37,241 bases of DNA from Thermoanaerobaculia bacterium (GTDB taxonomy: Bacteria > Acidobacteriota > Thermoanaerobaculia > Multivoradales > JAIOJS01): NCBI GenBank assembly GCA_030429235.1, contig JAUIDB010000035.1, positions 1 through 37,241 on the forward strand, given 5' to 3'. Position 1 is the first letter of the stretch, and the number at the start of each line of letters is the position of its first letter. The notes under the pieces were generated by a model. The model made no database searches and had not been told where the DNA came from. It saw nothing but the letters and a program-made list of their open reading frames with translations. Both the position numbers and the translations under genes were made by a program. Positions 2,253 to 9,264 of the stretch are shown here, in pieces.

Positions 2253-2735
2253 ATGGCGAAGCAGTTTTGGTTGATGAAGTCCGAGCCCGACGTGTATTCC
2301 TACGCTGACCTCGAGCGAGAAGGTCGAACGCATTGGGAAGGAGTCAGGAACTACCAGGCACGCAACTTGATGCGGGAGATGAAGGCGGGGGATCAGGTCC
2401 TGTACTACCACTCCCGGAGTACTCCGCCCGGAGTCGTGGGGATTGCCGAAGTCGTCAAGGAGGCCTATCCCGACTTCACGGCCCAGGATCCGGACAGCCA
2501 CTACTACGACCCGAAGTCGAGCGCCGAGAACCCGCGCTGGTCGATGGTCGATCTGGCGCCGGTGCGCCGCCTGGAGTCGCTGGTGAGTCTCGCGGCACTC
2601 AAAGGAAATCCAGAGCTCGAAGGGATGGCCGTGGTCAAGAAGGGCCAGCGGCTTTCGGTACAGCCGGTGCGACCGGAGGAGTTTGCCATCGTCCTGGAGA
2701 TGGCCGCCAGCGGGTCGCCGCGGGCTCCTGAGTGA
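2253..2735 (+). CDS. EVE domain protein (THYN1-like)
   Basis: This 160-residue protein is almost entirely an EVE domain, a PUA/YTH-like fold that binds modified bases in DNA or RNA. Hallmarks are the N-terminal FWLMKSEPDVYS, the WEGVRNYQARN segment (about residues 28-38) and GDQVLYYHS. Three ATG codons lie in tandem at 2247, 2250 and 2253. The third is chosen because GGAG at 2243-2246 then sits 6 nt upstream, and the protein would begin MAKQFW as homologs do. Its TGA overlaps the GTG of the helicase gene (GTGA), indicating coupled translation. EVE proteins are often linked to nucleic-acid modification or restriction. The role beside a helicase is inferred to be substrate recognition. Confidence 0.88.
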   Translation: MAKQFWLMKSEPDVYSYADLEREGRTHWEGVRNYQARNLMREMKAGDQVLYYHSRSTPPGVVGIAEVVKEAYPDFTAQDPDSHYYDPKSSAENPRWSMVDLAPVRRLESLVSLAALKGNPELEGMAVVKKGQRLSVQPVRPEEFAIVLEMAASGSPRAPE

Positions 2736-5389
2736 CCACGGACGACGCCACGGAGTCGCCCCCGGTCGTCCCGTCGGAGGGCGGCCCCAGGCCGGGTCGG
2801 CCCCTGGGCCAGCGGGTCGCACCAGGAACGCTGCACGACCCCGACGAGATCCTGGACCGATTCTTGGAGTGGGCCCTCGACCGAGGTCTCGAGCTGTACC
2901 CCGCCCAGGAGGAGGGGTTGCTGGAGTTGATGAGCGGCCGGCACGTCGTGCTCAACACGCCCACCGGCTCCGGCAAGTCGCTCGTCGCGCTCGGTCTGCA
3001 ATGGAAGGGCCTCTGCGAGGGCAAACGCTCGTACTACACCAGTCCGATCAAGGCGCTGGCCAGTGAGAAGTTCTTCTCGTTATGCAGCGAACTGGGGGCC
3101 GAGAACGTCGGGATGCTCACGGGCGATGCCAGCATCAACCCCGAGGCTCCGGTGATCTGTTGTACTGCCGAGGTGCTGTCGAACCTCGCGTTGCGCCTCG
3201 GCGAGGAACTCAGTGCCGACTACGTGATCATGGACGAGTTCCACTACTACTCCGACCCGGAGCGAGGCGTGGCCTGGCAGGTACCGCTGATCACGCTGCC
3301 GCGGAGCCAGTTTCTTCTGATGTCGGCCACCCTGGGGAACACAGCGTTTCTGCGCGAAGACCTCGAACGACGTACCGGGGTCGGGGTGGCGCATGTCAGC
3401 ACCTCGGTGCGTCCGGTCCCGCTGGACTACGAGTACCGCGAGACGTCACTGCACGAGACCGTGGAAGGGCTGGTCGCCAAGGAACGAGTGCCGGTCTACA
3501 TCGTCAACTTCACCCAGCGTGAGTGTGCCGAACTCGCCCAGAGCGTGACGAGCATGAAGGTAGCCAGCCGGGAGGATCGGGAGAAGGTCTGGCAGGCGAT
3601 CGCGGACTTCCGCTTCGATACCCCGTACGGCAAAGAGCTCAAGCGGTTTCTCGGCTTTGGCATCGCGGTCCACCATGCCGGGCTACTGCCCAAGTACCGG
3701 TTGCTGGTGGAGCAATTGGCCCAACAGGGACTCCTCAAGGTGATCTGCGGCACGGACACCCTGGGGGTAGGAGTCAACGTTCCCATCCGCACCGTGCTCT
3801 TCAACAAGCTCGCCAAGTACGACGGCTCCAAGGTGGGCATACTGACCGTGCGGGACTTTCGCCAGATCGCCGGCCGAGCCGGTCGCAAAGGTTTCGACGA
3901 CCGAGGCCACGTGGTGGTGCAAGCACCGGCGCGCGCCATCGAGCGGCGCAAGGCCGAACTGTCCGGGAAGAAAAAGAAGAAGCCGTCAGGTTCGAGCCGG
4001 CAAGAGGTCGAGTGGTCCGAAGAGACCTTCCAGCGCTTGCAGAGTGGTGATCCCGAACCGCTCGAGTCGCGGTTCACGGTCACCCACGGCATGGTCCTCG
4101 ACCTCATCCAACGGGACGCCGCCGTAAACGATCCCGACCATCGAAACTTCCACTCGCTACGACAGCTGATCGAACGCAGCCATGCTCGCGAGGTGGAGAA
4201 GGGAGAGCTGCTCCAGAGAGCGGCTCAGTTGGTCCGGTCGCTGGGGCGTACGGGCATTCTCCGCCTGGAGAAGGACCGTCGGTCGAACTACCGCTGGGTC
4301 GTGGTCGACCAGGACCTCCAGCTCGAGTTCTCTCTCCACCAGACCCTGTCCCCCTGGTTGGTCGAGGCTCTCGAGACACTCGATGCAGAGCGCCCGGAGT
4401 ACGCGACCAGTCTGCTGAGTTTCGTCGAGGCGATTCTGGAGAATCCCCGGATCATCCTGCTGCGCCAGGCCGATCACCGGAAGACCGAGCTGATGGCCAG
4501 AATGAAAGCCGAAGGCGTCCCCTACGAGGAGCGCATCGAGAGACTCGAGGAGGTCTCGCATCCGACACCCTGTGCCGAGGAGATCTTTGCCTCGTTCGAT
4601 CGGTTCCGAGAAGAGCACGTCTGGGTTCGCGGCGAGAATCCCCGGCCCAAGTCGATCGGGCGCGAGCTCTTCGAGAACTACTGGTCCTTCGCCGACTTCA
4701 TCCGGAGGTATGGGCTGCAACGGAGCGAGGGCATCCTGCTGCGCTACCTGAGCCAGCTCTACAAGACCCTGGTGCAGAACGTTCCCGAGCGATTCAAGAC
4801 CGAGGAGGTCTACGACCTGATCGGCTTCTTGAGAACCCTGCTCGAAACCACCGATACCAGCCTCTTGGAAGAGTGGGAGAGCCTCCTCCACCCCGAACTG
4901 AGGTTCGAGGAGGCAGGGAAGCAGCAACAGAGTCGAGAGGCCCTGCGCTCTTACGAACTCTTCCATGACCCCAGGGCCTTCCAGGCCAGGGTCCGGGCCG
5001 AACTCCATCAGCTCGTGCGTTCACTGGCCCGTGAGGACTGGGACGGCGCGCTGGGCGGGCTCAGGTCGGTGGAGGAGGTTTGGACCCAAGACGGTCTGAT
5101 GGAGAGCCTTGGGGGCCACTCCGTCGTCTTCGATCACGAGGCCCGTCGGACTTATCACACCAGGATCGAGGAGGTAGCACCCCGACGTTGGAGCGTCGAG
5201 CACACCCTGCGATTGCGTCCGCCAAGCCTCACGGAGGACGAGGGCGTCCCGGCTTCCTCCGTTCCAGAGTTCGAAGAGGAGGCGGGGGAGGACGAGTGCG
5301 GGACCGGCGTCCTGCGGGCGCGGATCGATCTGGGACCTGGGAAGCCGCTCGAGGGCCCCTTGCTCGAATTACTCGCAGTCGAAACGTAG
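2732..5389 (+). CDS. Ski2-like DEAD/DEAH-box helicase with DUF3516-type C-terminus
   Basis: An 885-residue superfamily 2 helicase. Visible motifs are Walker A TPTGSGKS (Lys82), the Walker B box DEFH (168-171), motif III SAT (198-200), HHAGLLPKYR, GVNVPIRT and motif VI QIAGRAGRKG. A Lys/Arg-rich insertion (KKKKK) follows the helicase core. The C-terminal half (about 430-885) resembles the DUF3516 region of actinobacterial and proteobacterial helicases, including the ENYW, LYKTLVQNVPE and RTLLETTD segments. The GTG start overlaps the EVE stop. It is an ATP-dependent nucleic-acid translocase, most likely RNA-directed by analogy with Ski2/Mtr4, although the substrate of DUF3516 helicases is not something I can establish here. 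Coupling to the EVE protein suggests they act together. Confidence 0.85.
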   Translation: MTTDDATESPPVVPSEGGPRPGRPLGQRVAPGTLHDPDEILDRFLEWALDRGLELYPAQEEGLLELMSGRHVVLNTPTGSGKSLVALGLQWKGLCEGKRSYYTSPIKALASEKFFSLCSELGAENVGMLTGDASINPEAPVICCTAEVLSNLALRLGEELSADYVIMDEFHYYSDPERGVAWQVPLITLPRSQFLLMSATLGNTAFLREDLERRTGVGVAHVSTSVRPVPLDYEYRETSLHETVEGLVAKERVPVYIVNFTQRECAELAQSVTSMKVASREDREKVWQAIADFRFDTPYGKELKRFLGFGIAVHHAGLLPKYRLLVEQLAQQGLLKVICGTDTLGVGVNVPIRTVLFNKLAKYDGSKVGILTVRDFRQIAGRAGRKGFDDRGHVVVQAPARAIERRKAELSGKKKKKPSGSSRQEVEWSEETFQRLQSGDPEPLESRFTVTHGMVLDLIQRDAAVNDPDHRNFHSLRQLIERSHAREVEKGELLQRAAQLVRSLGRTGILRLEKDRRSNYRWVVVDQDLQLEFSLHQTLSPWLVEALETLDAERPEYATSLLSFVEAILENPRIILLRQADHRKTELMARMKAEGVPYEERIERLEEVSHPTPCAEEIFASFDRFREEHVWVRGENPRPKSIGRELFENYWSFADFIRRYGLQRSEGILLRYLSQLYKTLVQNVPERFKTEEVYDLIGFLRTLLETTDTSLLEEWESLLHPELRFEEAGKQQQSREALRSYELFHDPRAFQARVRAELHQLVRSLAREDWDGALGGLRSVEEVWTQDGLMESLGGHSVVFDHEARRTYHTRIEEVAPRRWSVEHTLRLRPPSLTEDEGVPASSVPEFEEEAGEDECGTGVLRARIDLGPGKPLEGPLLELLAVET

Positions 5390-5526
5390 CCGCACTTGGG
5401 GCGGGGAGGTGACGAGCGAGCTTGTGCCACCTAGGCACAAATTGGCATCGACGCTGCCGGATCGTGCCAAATCTGCGGTTCGACTCCAGAGTGCGAACGT
5501 GGGCCTCGGAGGGTCGGGAGCCCCAG
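5390..5526. other. Intergenic stretch with inverted repeats, no gene seen
   Basis: This is the plus-side part of the 401-base region between the helicase and ligD stop codons. It holds a perfect 7-bp inverted repeat, TTGTGCC-ACCTA-GGCACAA (5422-5440), and a second partial repeat TTGGCA/TGCCAA (5442-5470). A short open frame on either strand has no protein-like composition and runs through a terminator hairpin. I see no gene here. Confidence 0.5.
5422..5440. repeat. Perfect 7-bp inverted repeat downstream of helicase gene
   Basis: TTGTGCC (5422-5428) and GGCACAA (5434-5440) flank a 5-nt centre, 32 nt after the helicase stop. There is no U-tract, so it is unlikely to be an intrinsic terminator; an operator or RNA hairpin is possible. 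Confidence 0.5.
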
Positions 5527-5555
5527 ATACAACAACGCCCGCCTTGCGGCGGGCG
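5527..5555 (-). terminator. Intrinsic terminator of the putative orphan RNA
   Basis: On the minus strand, an 8-bp all-GC stem CGCCCGCC/GGCGGGCG (plus coordinates 5548-5555 and 5536-5543) closes on a GCAA tetraloop, and is followed by the T-rich run TTGTTGTA (5535-5528). On the plus strand the hairpin is not followed by a comparable T-run, so the minus orientation is favoured. Confidence 0.65.
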
Positions 5556-5757
5556 CCCGTTTCAGCTGACTTTCTGTCTCTAAAACGGCTAAATGGACTC
5601 GGGAAAAACCGTTCTGGGGTTGGCTTGATGGCTTTACCCCCGTAAGACTAGGGGGAAGCAGGTAAGCTAATGAGAGGTGGAGACCGGACGGCCTCACTAG
5701 ATGTGGTGGGATGTGTTGGCTAGCGGAGTCTCCCGATGTTGTTTAGGTTGTCCATGC
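5528..5757 (-). ncRNA. Putative sigma-54-dependent small RNA, about 230 nt
   Basis: No protein-like reading frame exists here, yet the minus strand is bounded by a full-consensus -24/-12 promoter (5784-5768) and a GNRA-capped intrinsic terminator (5555-5527). With the -12 C at 5769, the predicted start is near 5757, giving a transcript of about 230 nt. Inside it, GCUUCCCCC (5659-5651) can pair with GGGGG..AAGC (5641-5631), and AACGG/CCGUU form a second arm. An 11-codon ATG frame (5755-5720) starts almost at the predicted 5' end; it may be a leader peptide or chance. I recognise no known riboswitch or sRNA family. RNA identity is inferred from boundaries and folding, not from homology. Confidence 0.55.
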
Positions 5758-5767
5758 CTCAAGCAAG

Positions 5768-5784
5768 AGCAAGTGGCGTGCCAA
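5768..5784 (-). promoter_or_regulatory. Sigma-54 (RpoN) -24/-12 promoter
   Basis: Reading the minus strand from 5784 to 5768, the sequence is TTGGCACG-CCAC-TTGCT. It matches every specified base of the -24/-12 consensus TGGCACG-N4-TTGC(A/T), with GG and GC correctly spaced. It starts 7 nt past the ligD stop codon and points away from ligD into the 5.5-5.76 kb non-coding region. Sigma-54 promoters need an enhancer-binding protein, whose site would fall inside the ligD 3' end. Confidence 0.7.
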
Positions 5785-5790
5785 CTATGG

Positions 5791-8301
5791 CTATTCGGTC
5801 GCCGATCGCAGGAGAAGGGCCAGTTTTCCCAGGGCATCAGTGAGGTTGGGAGTCTCCGCCAGGACCGGGAGCACGGGGTCGGCGGCCAGCGTCTGGAGCC
5901 GTTCTGGCATCGTCTGCAGAGTGAAGTGCCCGATCGACAGGTTGTCGTCGACCTCGTCCCAGTGGAGAGGAGCCGAGACCGGAGCCTCCGGCAGCGGGCG
6001 AAGGGAGTAAGGGGCGACCAGCAGTTGTCCCCGTCGATTCTGCAAGTAGTCCAGATAGACCCTGCCCTGGCGAGCGTCGAGCGTGCGGGCCAGAGTCGAG
6101 ATCTTCGGATGTCGGCTGTGGATCACGCGGGCCAGAAGTTCCGCCAAGAGACGGCTCTGGGTGTAGTCGCAAACCCCACCCAGCGGGATCAAGACGTGGA
6201 GGCCGGTGGAGCCGGACGTCTTGACCACCGCCGGTAGGTCGATCTCCTGGCAGAGGGTATGAGCCTCCCGAGCCAGGACGACGACATCCGCGAACGGCGC
6301 TTCCTTGGGATCGAGGTCGATGATGCTCCAGTCTGGCTTCTCCAGTCTGCCCACCCGACTCGCCCAGAGATGGAAGGGGATCGCGCCCAGGTTGGCCAGA
6401 TAGAGCAGGGTGTCGCGGTCGTTGCACACGAAGTACTCGATCGCCTTGGGCGGGTCCCCGCTCCACACCTCGATGGTCGGGACCCAGTCGGGAGCGTGGT
6501 CCGGAGCGTTCTTCTGGTAGAAGGACTTGCCATCGATTCCATCGGGGTAGCGATCCAACACCAGAGGGCGATCGCGCAGGTAGGGGAGCATCCACTGGGC
6601 CACGGTTTCGTAGTAGTCGAGCAGGTCTCCTTTGGTGAGGCCGCTCTTGGGCCAGAAGACCTTGGACCGGTTGCTCTGGCGAGCCCGGCGGGTGGGCGCG
6701 TCCGGTGGGAGTGGCGTCGCGGGTGGTGGGCTCGGCAGGCTCGCCGGTGGAAACTCCTCCAGGGGAAGCAGGCGGAGAAAGACTGGATGGCGGAGGTTGC
6801 CGTCGTCGGTTCGCTCCTTGTAACGAACTTCGCAGCGCAAGAGGGGGCGAATCCAACGGTCGGGCTCGGCGACGGGAACCTCGAGGCCGGGGCTGGGCTC
6901 TTCGATTCGCAGCTCCTCGAAAAGGGGTTCGAGGTCGCGGCGATCGGCCTCGGAGAATCCCGAGCCGACCCGTCCGGAGTAGACCAGCCCGTCTTCGGTC
7001 TGGGCGGCTACGTGCAAGGCGCCGACGCCCTGGGTCTGGTCCTTGGGTGGGCGGTACCCGACGATGACGAAGTCGTCGGTGTTGTCGGCGCGGATCTTGA
7101 GCCAATGGTCCGAGCGGCGGCCGCTGTGGTAGACGGAATCCCGCCGCTTGGCCATGATGCCCTCCAGCCCGAGCGTCTGGATCTGACCAAAGAGGGCTTC
7201 GCCTCGCTCCGCCAGGTCGTCGGCATAGCGCAGGACCCCGAGGCGCGGCACGATCCGAGCGAGCAGCTCCTTGCGTCGCTCCAGGGGCAGACTCCGCAGG
7301 TCCTTGCCGTCGAGCGCCAGGAGATCGAAGGCGTAGTAGGTCGCCGGTTGCTCGAGCGTCGCGCGGAGCACGTCGAGTCGACGACTGAGCTGAGCCCGAC
7401 GCTGGAGCCGCTGGAAGCTGGGACGACCGTCGTCCTCCAGGACGACGACCTCGCCGTCCAGAACGATGAACGGCGTGGGCAGCGAGAGGAGAGCTCGGGC
7501 GACGTCCGGGTACAGGCTGGTGGCATCGCGACCGCTGCGGTAGGTGAGCCTGGGATCGCCACCGTCGCGACCCGCGATCAAACGGAATCCGTCGTACTTC
7601 AGTTCGAACGTCCAGTCGGGGTGCGAGAAGGCCTTCTCCCGAGTCTCTGCCAGCATCGGTTGCAGGTCCGCGGCTTCGCCAGGCCAAGCGGGGAGGTTCA
7701 GCCGTTCCACCTCGCTTCGGGCCTCGGTCGCTCCGGAGGATCCCTCACCGAGCTCTTCAACCGTGAGTCCCGACAGGATGGAGGTCTCGACCGGTGCGAA
7801 CTCGTCGCTGCGGCGGGACCAACCATCCTGCTTTTTCAGCAGGAGCCACTCTCGCTTCTCTCGTTGGGTGGGGAAGAGGGTCCAGACCCCGCGGAGCTTG
7901 TGGCCCCGGAGTTCGAACAGAAGCTTGCCCTCTCGTTCCTCCTTTTCCGTGACGGGAAGGGGTACGAACTGACCTCGATCCCAGACGATCATCGCTCCGG
8001 CGCCATAGTTCCCGGCGGGGATGACCCCTTCGAAATCAGCGTAGTCGAGGGGGTGGTCCTCGGTCTGAACGGCGAAGCGCTTGACGGCGGGGTCGAGGCT
8101 GGGCCCCTGGGGCACCGCCCAGGACCGCAGCACTCCGTCGTACTCGAGGCGGAGGTCGTAGTGCAGCCGTCGAGCGGCATGCTTCTGGACCACGAAAACC
8201 CTCGGCCCACCACTGGGAGTAGCGCCACCGAACGGCTCGGGTGTCTGGTTAGCGTCTCGTTTGGCCCGATACTCGGCCAGCTGGTCTTTGGGGGTGGTCA
8301 A
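5791..8301 (-). CDS. ligD: Multifunctional NHEJ ligase/polymerase/phosphoesterase LigD
   Basis: An 836-residue ATP-dependent DNA ligase D for Ku-dependent non-homologous end joining. Domain order is PE-LIG-POL. The 3'-phosphoesterase spans about 32-160 (VVQKHAARRLHYDLRLE). The ligase spans about 212-520, with adenylated Lys235 in KYDGFR, DGEVV (282-286) and motif EGIMAKR (380-386). A Pro/Ser-rich linker at about 515-540 is followed by the primase-like polymerase (about 548-805), with metal ligands Asp662 and Asp664 in IIDLDP and a third Asp at 751. The TTG start at 8301 is preferred because the protein then begins with the usual LAEYRAKRD..TPEP segment; no in-frame ATG fits. It diverges from ku across a 75-nt shared region. 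Confidence 0.95.
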   Translation of the reverse strand: MTTPKDQLAEYRAKRDANQTPEPFGGATPSGGPRVFVVQKHAARRLHYDLRLEYDGVLRSWAVPQGPSLDPAVKRFAVQTEDHPLDYADFEGVIPAGNYGAGAMIVWDRGQFVPLPVTEKEEREGKLLFELRGHKLRGVWTLFPTQREKREWLLLKKQDGWSRRSDEFAPVETSILSGLTVEELGEGSSGATEARSEVERLNLPAWPGEAADLQPMLAETREKAFSHPDWTFELKYDGFRLIAGRDGGDPRLTYRSGRDATSLYPDVARALLSLPTPFIVLDGEVVVLEDDGRPSFQRLQRRAQLSRRLDVLRATLEQPATYYAFDLLALDGKDLRSLPLERRKELLARIVPRLGVLRYADDLAERGEALFGQIQTLGLEGIMAKRRDSVYHSGRRSDHWLKIRADNTDDFVIVGYRPPKDQTQGVGALHVAAQTEDGLVYSGRVGSGFSEADRRDLEPLFEELRIEEPSPGLEVPVAEPDRWIRPLLRCEVRYKERTDDGNLRHPVFLRLLPLEEFPPASLPSPPPATPLPPDAPTRRARQSNRSKVFWPKSGLTKGDLLDYYETVAQWMLPYLRDRPLVLDRYPDGIDGKSFYQKNAPDHAPDWVPTIEVWSGDPPKAIEYFVCNDRDTLLYLANLGAIPFHLWASRVGRLEKPDWSIIDLDPKEAPFADVVVLAREAHTLCQEIDLPAVVKTSGSTGLHVLIPLGGVCDYTQSRLLAELLARVIHSRHPKISTLARTLDARQGRVYLDYLQNRRGQLLVAPYSLRPLPEAPVSAPLHWDEVDDNLSIGHFTLQTMPERLQTLAADPVLPVLAETPNLTDALGKLALLLRSATE

Positions 8302-8337
8302 GGCGCCGCGTGTTCCCGCACTGTGAGGTCGTTCTGA

Positions 8338-8371
8338 GTGGCAATCCTGGCCCAAACATGCTATAACAGCA
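8338..8371 (+). promoter_or_regulatory. ku promoter with inverted repeat over the -10 box
   Basis: GTGGCA (8338-8343, four of six -35 matches) is separated by 18 nt from TATAAC (8362-8367, five of six -10 matches). The -10 lies inside a perfect 5-bp inverted repeat, ATGCT-ATAAC-AGCAT (about 8358-8372). The ku ATG is only 9 nt after the -10 and has no Shine-Dalgarno, implying leaderless translation. The repeat may be a regulator site affecting both ku and divergent ligD. Confidence 0.45.
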
Positions 8372-8376
8372 TCACC

Positions 8377-9264
8377 ATGCCAGCACGCTCGATCGCTACC
8401 GGCACGATCTCGTTTGGTCTCGTGGCCATTCCGGTGCGGATGTACTCGACCGGTGAGACGTCCCGCTCCATCTCGTTCAGCTGGCTGCACGAGAAGTGTC
8501 ACGGGCGAGTGAAGCAGCAGTACTACTGCCCAACGGACGAGGTGACGGTCGACCGCAAGGATCTCGTGAAGGGCTACCAGTTCGCCAAAGACCAGTACGT
8601 GGTCTTCACGCAGGAAGAACTCAAGGCGTTCGATGCCAAGGCCACCCACTCGATCGATATCGCCGAGTTCGTGCCCGCCGAGCAGGTGGATCCGCTGTAC
8701 TACGAGAAGGCCTACTTCCTAGGACCCAACGTGGGCGGGGATCGACCCTACCGCCTCCTGACGGCGGCGATGCGCGCGACGGGGCGGGTCGCGATCGCCC
8801 GGTACGCCGCGCGGGGCAAGATGTACATCGTCCTGCTGCGGCCCTACCAGGACGGCGTGATCATGCAGCAGCTGCGCTATGCCGACGAGGTGCGCTCCTT
8901 CGAGGAGGTTCCCCTCGGGGACGTCGAAGTGGAGGAGAAGGAACTCGAGCTGGCCAAGATGCTGGTCGACCAGATCGCCTCCGACACCTTCGATCCGTCG
9001 GCCTACGAAGACAAGACCAAGCAGGCCATCCGCGAGATGATCGAGCAGAAGATCGAGGGCAAGGAGATCACGGCGGCGACGCCAGAAGAGCCCAAGGGCC
9101 AGATCATCGATCTCATGGAGGCTCTGAAGGCCAGCCTGGGCGGAGCCGAGGGCGAGGCCGAAGCCGAACGCAAACCCCCCAAGCGTTCCCGCGCCTCGAA
9201 GTCCAGCAAGAAGGCCTCCAGCGGAGGACGCAAGCGTGCAGCTGGTGGATCTAGCGACGGTTAG
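8377..9264 (+). CDS. ku: Ku protein, NHEJ end-binding
   Basis: A 295-residue bacterial Ku. It forms a homodimeric ring on DNA double-strand ends and recruits LigD, which diverges next door. The N-terminus (ARSIATGTISFGLVAIPVRM) matches the family start, which is why the ATG at 8377 is chosen over an upstream in-frame GTG at 8338. The beta-barrel core occupies about residues 1-255, including FVPAEQVDPLYYEKAYFL. The last 36 residues are a Lys/Arg/Ser-rich flexible tail, as in Ku proteins that contact DNA and LigD through a basic C-terminus. The 3' end overlaps the MerR-TPR gene by 29 nt. Confidence 0.96.
   Translation: MPARSIATGTISFGLVAIPVRMYSTGETSRSISFSWLHEKCHGRVKQQYYCPTDEVTVDRKDLVKGYQFAKDQYVVFTQEELKAFDAKATHSIDIAEFVPAEQVDPLYYEKAYFLGPNVGGDRPYRLLTAAMRATGRVAIARYAARGKMYIVLLRPYQDGVIMQQLRYADEVRSFEEVPLGDVEVEEKELELAKMLVDQIASDTFDPSAYEDKTKQAIREMIEQKIEGKEITAATPEEPKGQIIDLMEALKASLGGAEGEAEAERKPPKRSRASKSSKKASSGGRKRAAGGSSDG

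Follow-up and report, generated by a model that had tools for sequence, protein, structure and literature searches.

The stretch of DNA analysed here (hereafter the window) comprises 37,241 nucleotides (nt) of a Thermoanaerobaculia bacterium genome (contig JAUIDB010000035.1 of assembly GCA_030429235.1). In the 401-nt gap bounded by the stop codons of a DEAD-box/DUF3516 helicase gene (5389) and of ligD (5791), the window holds a putative small RNA gene on the minus strand, with its own promoter, fold and terminator (Table 1). From its sequence and that of its relatives, this RNA looks like the member of a new family of sigma-54-controlled, structured small RNAs that is absent from the RNA catalogue searched (Rfam 15).

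Table 1. Coordinates of the RNA gene, its structural parts and its neighbours in the window (G001, another genome of the same genus; P1 to P3, helices of the conserved fold)
Feature	Positions	Strand	Basis
Sigma-54 -24/-12 promoter element	5768..5784	-	exact match; TGGCACGggggTTGCT in same-genus G001; fixed distance in 47/65 family copies
Predicted ~230-nt non-coding transcript	5528..5757	-	start set 12 nt past the C of the -12 element; end from the terminator; 79% identity to G001
Intrinsic terminator	5527..5557	-	8-10-bp GC stem (5557-5534), GCAA loop, T-rich tail; partly identical in G001
Conserved structural core with closing helix P1 (5735-5726/5610-5600)	5600..5735	-	models R2/R3; P1 covariation
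Hairpin P2, GAGGCC-GUCC-GGUCUC	5680..5695	-	double-sided changes in 5/6 pairs (16 sequences) and 6/6 (65)
Hairpin P3, CCCCC...ACGGGGG	5637..5655	-	most conserved sequence block
P3 3' strand and conserved unpaired GGGGGUAAAGCCAUCAAGCCAACC, with CC(N)ACC-type motif	5618..5641	-	conservation profile, 47 sigma-54 copies
Conserved unpaired CCAACACAUCCCACC, CC(N)ACC-type motifs	5705..5719	-	conservation profile, 47 sigma-54 copies
3' hairpin CCGUUUU...GAAACGG, core-to-terminator interval	5557..5588	-	kept only partly in G001
ligD, upstream gene (context)	5791..8649	-	Pfam LigD domains
DEAD-box/DUF3516 helicase gene, convergent (context)	2732..5389	+	Pfam; gene order same in G001

Promoter, terminator and same-genus homologue

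The promoter element (TTGGCACG-CCAC-TTGCT, minus strand 5784-5768), which sits just past the ligD stop codon, fits the sigma-54 -24/-12 consensus with zero mismatches. From base composition, only 0.0016 full 13/13 matches are expected in the window and 0.028 occurrences of TGGCAC-N5-TTGCW, of which this site is the sole one; the full-consensus promoter proposed in a preliminary description of the window is thus exact and unique. The C of the -12 element lies at 5769, which places the predicted transcript start at 5757. The terminator with a GCAA loop that the same description had proposed downstream was also recovered, with its stem at 5557-5534 (Table 1). In addition, the 230-nt region folds with an energy of -80.8 kcal/mol, compared with -61.5 +/- 4.7 for shuffles (z = -4.15), and the genome of the window (G000) carries a single RpoN gene, with a sigma-54 DNA-binding domain at 220 bits.

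In G001, a copy displaying 79% identity across the transcript, with promoter and terminator at the equivalent place, is flanked by ligD (67% product identity) and the convergent DUF3516 helicase gene, as in the window; the terminator hairpin and the first T-rich bases are identical in both copies. Since their alignment contains 1- and 2-nt gaps within the RNA, no reading frame is conserved there. This also applies to an 88-codon open frame (5431-5697, minus strand) that overlaps part of the RNA. A small protein could be proposed as well, because the predicted start lies 2 nt ahead of the ATG of an 11-codon frame (MDNLNNIGRLR) whose stop occurs at the same place in G000 and G001. However, most other copies lack an ATG there, longer frames are broken by indels and conservation falls in helices and loops, so that this explanation appears extremely improbable.

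The conserved fold

On the aligned sequences, one RNA fold is shared by the family, supported by compensatory base changes. Helix P1 pairs the ends of a core of ~136 nt, with hairpins P2 and P3 inside. Indeed, in an alignment of 65 copies, all 23/23 base pairs show at least one double-sided change (0/500 shuffles), 93.8% of the pair cells are paired, and the covariation score reaches 0.393, compared with 0.157 +/- 0.007 for shuffles and at most 0.09 for slid partners; the first 16 sequences gave similar figures. Note that these alignments were fitted to a covariance model, which favours the structure; RNAalifold recovered P1 and P3 too on MAFFT alignments built without the model. Two internal pairings had been proposed earlier: the CCCCC/GGGGG hairpin (5655-5637) was confirmed and is conserved, whereas AACGG/CCGUU falls outside the conserved fold, its 3' segment pairing instead with CGGGAGA at 5735-5729.

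The unpaired positions of the 47 copies with a sigma-54 element consist of 38% C, 33% A, 19% U and 11% G, and unpaired motifs of the type CC[ACU]{1,2}CC occur 4.0 times per molecule versus 1.8 in shuffles, above expectation in 43/47 copies. Sixteen copies share the pattern GGGGAGGUUCC ... UCCYACC ... hairpin ... ACCC ... CCCCU...ACAGGGGUA-AGCCAC-AA-GCCAACC ... GGAACCUCCCC. These G-poor unpaired strands and their repeated CC motifs suggest repeated contact sites, for mRNA start regions or for a protein.

Family members, their promoters and their settings

The family was collected with covariance models, of which R1 was built from the window and G001 sequences, R2 was refined from further copies and R3 is a later model; the E-values of these models are rough, and most genomes compared are fragmented assemblies. 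Searching the class with R1 gave further copies, 16 of which were judged genuine, and excluded as false were first-model matches that were terminator-only or otherwise without the core (L050, L053, L057, L061, L062 and L063). R2 matched 44/72 genomes and 24/28 genera of the order, and R3 matched 45/149 genomes of the class, in 25 genera that all belong to this one order; altogether the models yielded 65 copies, again from the single order, and none in 77 genomes of the class outside it. A search of 396 genomes of the phylum, with few candidates scored per genome, gave matches only in this order, and it did recover sampled order members already shown by other searches to carry the RNA. Genus g3 has no copy in 21 genomes. 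Judging by the nearest named relatives of LigD, the order would probably fall in the Myxococcota. A copy upstream of dnaA was sought in 20 genomes, most of them without a model match, and an additional one was found only in G014 (local search, 25 bits).

The word 'orphan' used in the preliminary description must thus be abandoned, as the RNA is one of a large family, normally found beside dnaA and mutY. Its absence from known families holds: the Rfam 15 search of the window gave no family match, and when the window, the G001 copy and 20 further loci were compared with Rfam, under the gathering cut-off as well as relaxed ones, all matches were at chance level, mostly to the terminator. No account of such an RNA turned up in the literature searched. 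Carriage by phages was considered and rejected, as a 16-base core motif occurs in six viral contigs, none of which matches the model.

A sigma-54 element (called at a minimum of 9/11 positions) precedes 47/65 copies, with the C of its -12 element 27-50 nt ahead of the core, against 1.6% of control windows. Where copies stand in tandem (two in G005, G013 and G028, three in G021), as in family f5, every one carries a sigma-54 element of its own. No such element precedes the 18 secondary copies, which all come from family f2, and 10/18 instead display the CRP-type consensus TTGTGA-N6-TCACAA 37-54 nt before the core (L094, L045, L096, L112, L113, L114, L117, L118, L119 and L124), followed in several of the ten by a -10-like TATNAT; downstream of several of these copies with a CRP-type site, a short-chain dehydrogenase gene follows. 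The same CRP-type sequence was seen across the predicted start of one sigma-54 copy (L108). In a third group (L115, L121, L122, L123, L126, L128 and L130), a SufT-like gene follows at ~220-350 nt; TAGANT-like sequences precede these copies, and TTTTCTGACA recurs after them. Intrinsic terminators were found within 110 nt of the core in 23/47 sigma-54 copies, 1/18 secondary copies and 4% of control windows. Promoter and stems being both conserved in the homologues, the earlier reading of an independently transcribed, folded RNA under putative sigma-54 control stands, with the promoter conservation, the compensatory changes and the RpoN gene in its favour.

At the usual locus, the order is dnaA (divergent), RNA, mutY and a convergent gene with cyclic-nucleotide-binding-domain similarity, and some families have an sppA-like gene between dnaA and the RNA; gene names at this locus were given by sequence resemblance, only some having been checked against Pfam. 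The convergent gene after mutY is conserved in L044, L046, L058 and others, and could be linked to the CRP-type sites. The same RNA occurs in unlike settings, namely between dnaA and mutY, between ligD and the helicase gene, and ahead of sufT or a short-chain dehydrogenase gene. In G000 and G001, dnaA and mutY are neighbours, and the ~220 nt separating them hold a DnaA-box pair and a dnaA promoter-like sequence but no RNA; in the window's genus, the gene would either have moved from dnaA/mutY or have been kept only as a duplicate.

Between dnaA and the RNA, inverted DnaA-box pairs (e.g., TTTTCCACAGCCTGTGGAAAA) and the dnaA promoter-like TGTGCTATNATC were observed, the pairs lying ~150-180 nt ahead of the sigma-54 element in L047, L054, L059, L098, L120, L135 and others, and also in L137 around 1317-1337; this region may be part of the replication origin. 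The location beside dnaA and these paired boxes would fit an explanation by DNA instead of RNA, with the conserved blocks as an element of the origin or of the dnaA promoter region. Such an explanation is hardly credible given the compensatory changes in the RNA helices, the conserved promoter and the terminator in half of the sigma-54 copies; moreover, since dnaA/mutY in G000 and G001 is without the RNA, the copy of the window's genus lying elsewhere with the DnaA boxes left behind, an origin element is unlikely.

As to the surroundings of the window copy, inverted repeats (TTGGCA...TGCCAA and TGTGCC-TAGGT-GGCACA) lie at 5420-5472, in the interval that separates the RNA terminator from the helicase stop codon. 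Ku (8338-9264) and ligD, a pair for end-joining repair, are arranged head to head; their listed open frames overlap at the 5' ends, so their true starts are probably later.

Proposed function and comparison with known RNAs

We consider it probable that the locus encodes an independent regulatory small RNA, the member of a new family, which acts in trans. RpoN-RNA polymerase, together with an enhancer-binding protein, would transcribe ~230 nt, starting at 5757 and ending at the terminator (5557-5527), and the RNA would fold into the P1-closed core with P2 and P3 inside, leaving the joining strands single-stranded, G-poor and rich in CC(N)ACC. We infer action in trans from the RNA's own promoter and terminator, from its tandem and unlinked copies and from the lack of a fixed downstream gene. 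As its likeliest action, put forward tentatively, the C-rich strands would pair with G-rich translation-start regions of several mRNAs, so that translation would decrease when the sigma-54 signal is on.

Several observations weigh against this proposal. The copies do not conserve a strict anti-Shine-Dalgarno sequence, ACCUCC being missing from P1 of the window copy; no convincing shared enhancer-binding site was seen in the upstream sequences inspected by eye; and within 110 nt of the core, no terminator could be recognised for half of the sigma-54 copies. Most of these are followed by mutY in the same orientation, 220-340 nt away if counted from core start to gene start, so that read-through into mutY is possible. 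At the usual locus, such a spacing (~220-340 nt), often with a terminator in between, would suit a cis-acting leader (riboswitch or attenuator) of the downstream gene, ancestrally mutY, as would the sufT or short-chain dehydrogenase gene following some secondary copies. We nevertheless find a cis leader very improbable, since tandem copies each have promoters and the downstream genes vary among subfamilies. For the window copy, a mutY leader was excluded: its next gene is on the opposite strand, as in G001, and both genomes retain a dnaA-adjacent mutY without the RNA.

Beside the trans-acting, mRNA-pairing RNA, a protein sponge was considered, in which the CC(N)ACC single strands would titrate an RNA-binding protein, as in CrcZ-Hfq or RsmZ-CsrA; we regard this as conceivable but doubtful. 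In its favour, several short repeats of one motif are displayed between hairpins, and the sigma-54 control and extra copies find a parallel in CrcZ/CrcY (PMC6292655). Against it, three g10 genomes have the RNA without convincing Hfq, so that Hfq would not be obligatory for the RNA. The repeat also differs from the A-rich motif of Hfq and from the GGA loop of CsrA, and we know of no protein preferring CC(N)ACC-type motifs. For the latter reason, and because Hfq is apparently not obligatory, mRNA pairing was rated slightly above protein titration. Somewhat less likely still is a new sponge class, in which the repeats would bind an RNA-binding protein that is not yet among those known to be controlled by RNA; sigma-54 signals would switch the sponge on, a second copy in one family would answer to a CRP-type signal, and the two signals would meet on one mechanism. 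Hfq itself is present in G000 (C37:107916-108095, 63 bits) and in most genera of the order, and is missing from all 21 g3 genomes, which are also without the RNA. A co-occurrence link between Hfq and the RNA was rejected, as the joint absence in g3 is maybe a single loss and the link is broken by g10.

To our knowledge, few RNAs are driven by sigma-54. The present family is conserved across an order and usually located beside dnaA. Its helices are supported by covariation, and a covariance model that works and a promoter motif are available for it; its members are candidates for studying the path from sigma-54 and CRP-type signals to translation in these bacteria. If the reading as a new sponge class were true, two global regulators would converge on an RNA mechanism usually encoded beside the replication-initiation gene.

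Among known RNAs, GlmY/GlmZ are sigma-54-controlled small RNAs in some enterobacteria, from which the present RNA differs in structure and location, with no Rfam match. The Qrr small RNAs of Vibrio, several sigma-54-dependent paralogues of ~100 nt that depend on Hfq, offer a parallel in control logic, again without an Rfam match. LhrC/CcsR-type small RNAs are multicopy and block Shine-Dalgarno sequences with C-rich unpaired segments, and are not known as sigma-54 RNAs; the copy number and the several C-rich unpaired segments are alike, but the fold differs. 6S RNA (RF00013) is likewise a long RNA whose ends pair and whose sequence is little conserved; it was rejected, as the window has no RF00013 match and G000 has a separate 6S gene (C40, 75 bits). 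CrcZ-type RNAs are sigma-54-dependent and present repeated single-stranded A-rich motifs to Hfq. CrcZ, CrcY and CrcX of Pseudomonas and Azotobacter are driven by CbrB and occur in several copies (PMC6292655, PMC8871633). Multiple copies, sigma-54 control logic and repeated single-stranded motifs are shared with them, whereas the repeats here are CC(N)ACC instead of A-rich, g10 lacks convincing Hfq and no Rfam match was found.

In the Myxococcota literature, the described sigma-54-driven case that we found is Pxr, which gates multicellular development. This stand-alone small RNA of Myxococcus xanthus and the Cystobacterineae, to which it is limited, has a sigma-54 promoter, 108 nt and three stem-loops, and its gene is flanked by the sigma-54 regulator gene nla19 upstream and by a NADH dehydrogenase gene downstream; Cystobacter has tandem paralogues, each with its own sigma-54 promoter (PMC5568312). 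The present RNA resembles Pxr as a stand-alone small RNA with a sigma-54 promoter and with tandem paralogues under individual sigma-54 promoters. In contrast, as judged from the published description and not from a sequence alignment, it differs in its ~230 nt and in its ~136-nt P1-closed core with two inner hairpins, and its neighbours are ligD/helicase or dnaA/mutY instead of nla19 and the NADH dehydrogenase gene. Altogether, Pxr is the closest described case in kind, differing in length, fold, location and host range.
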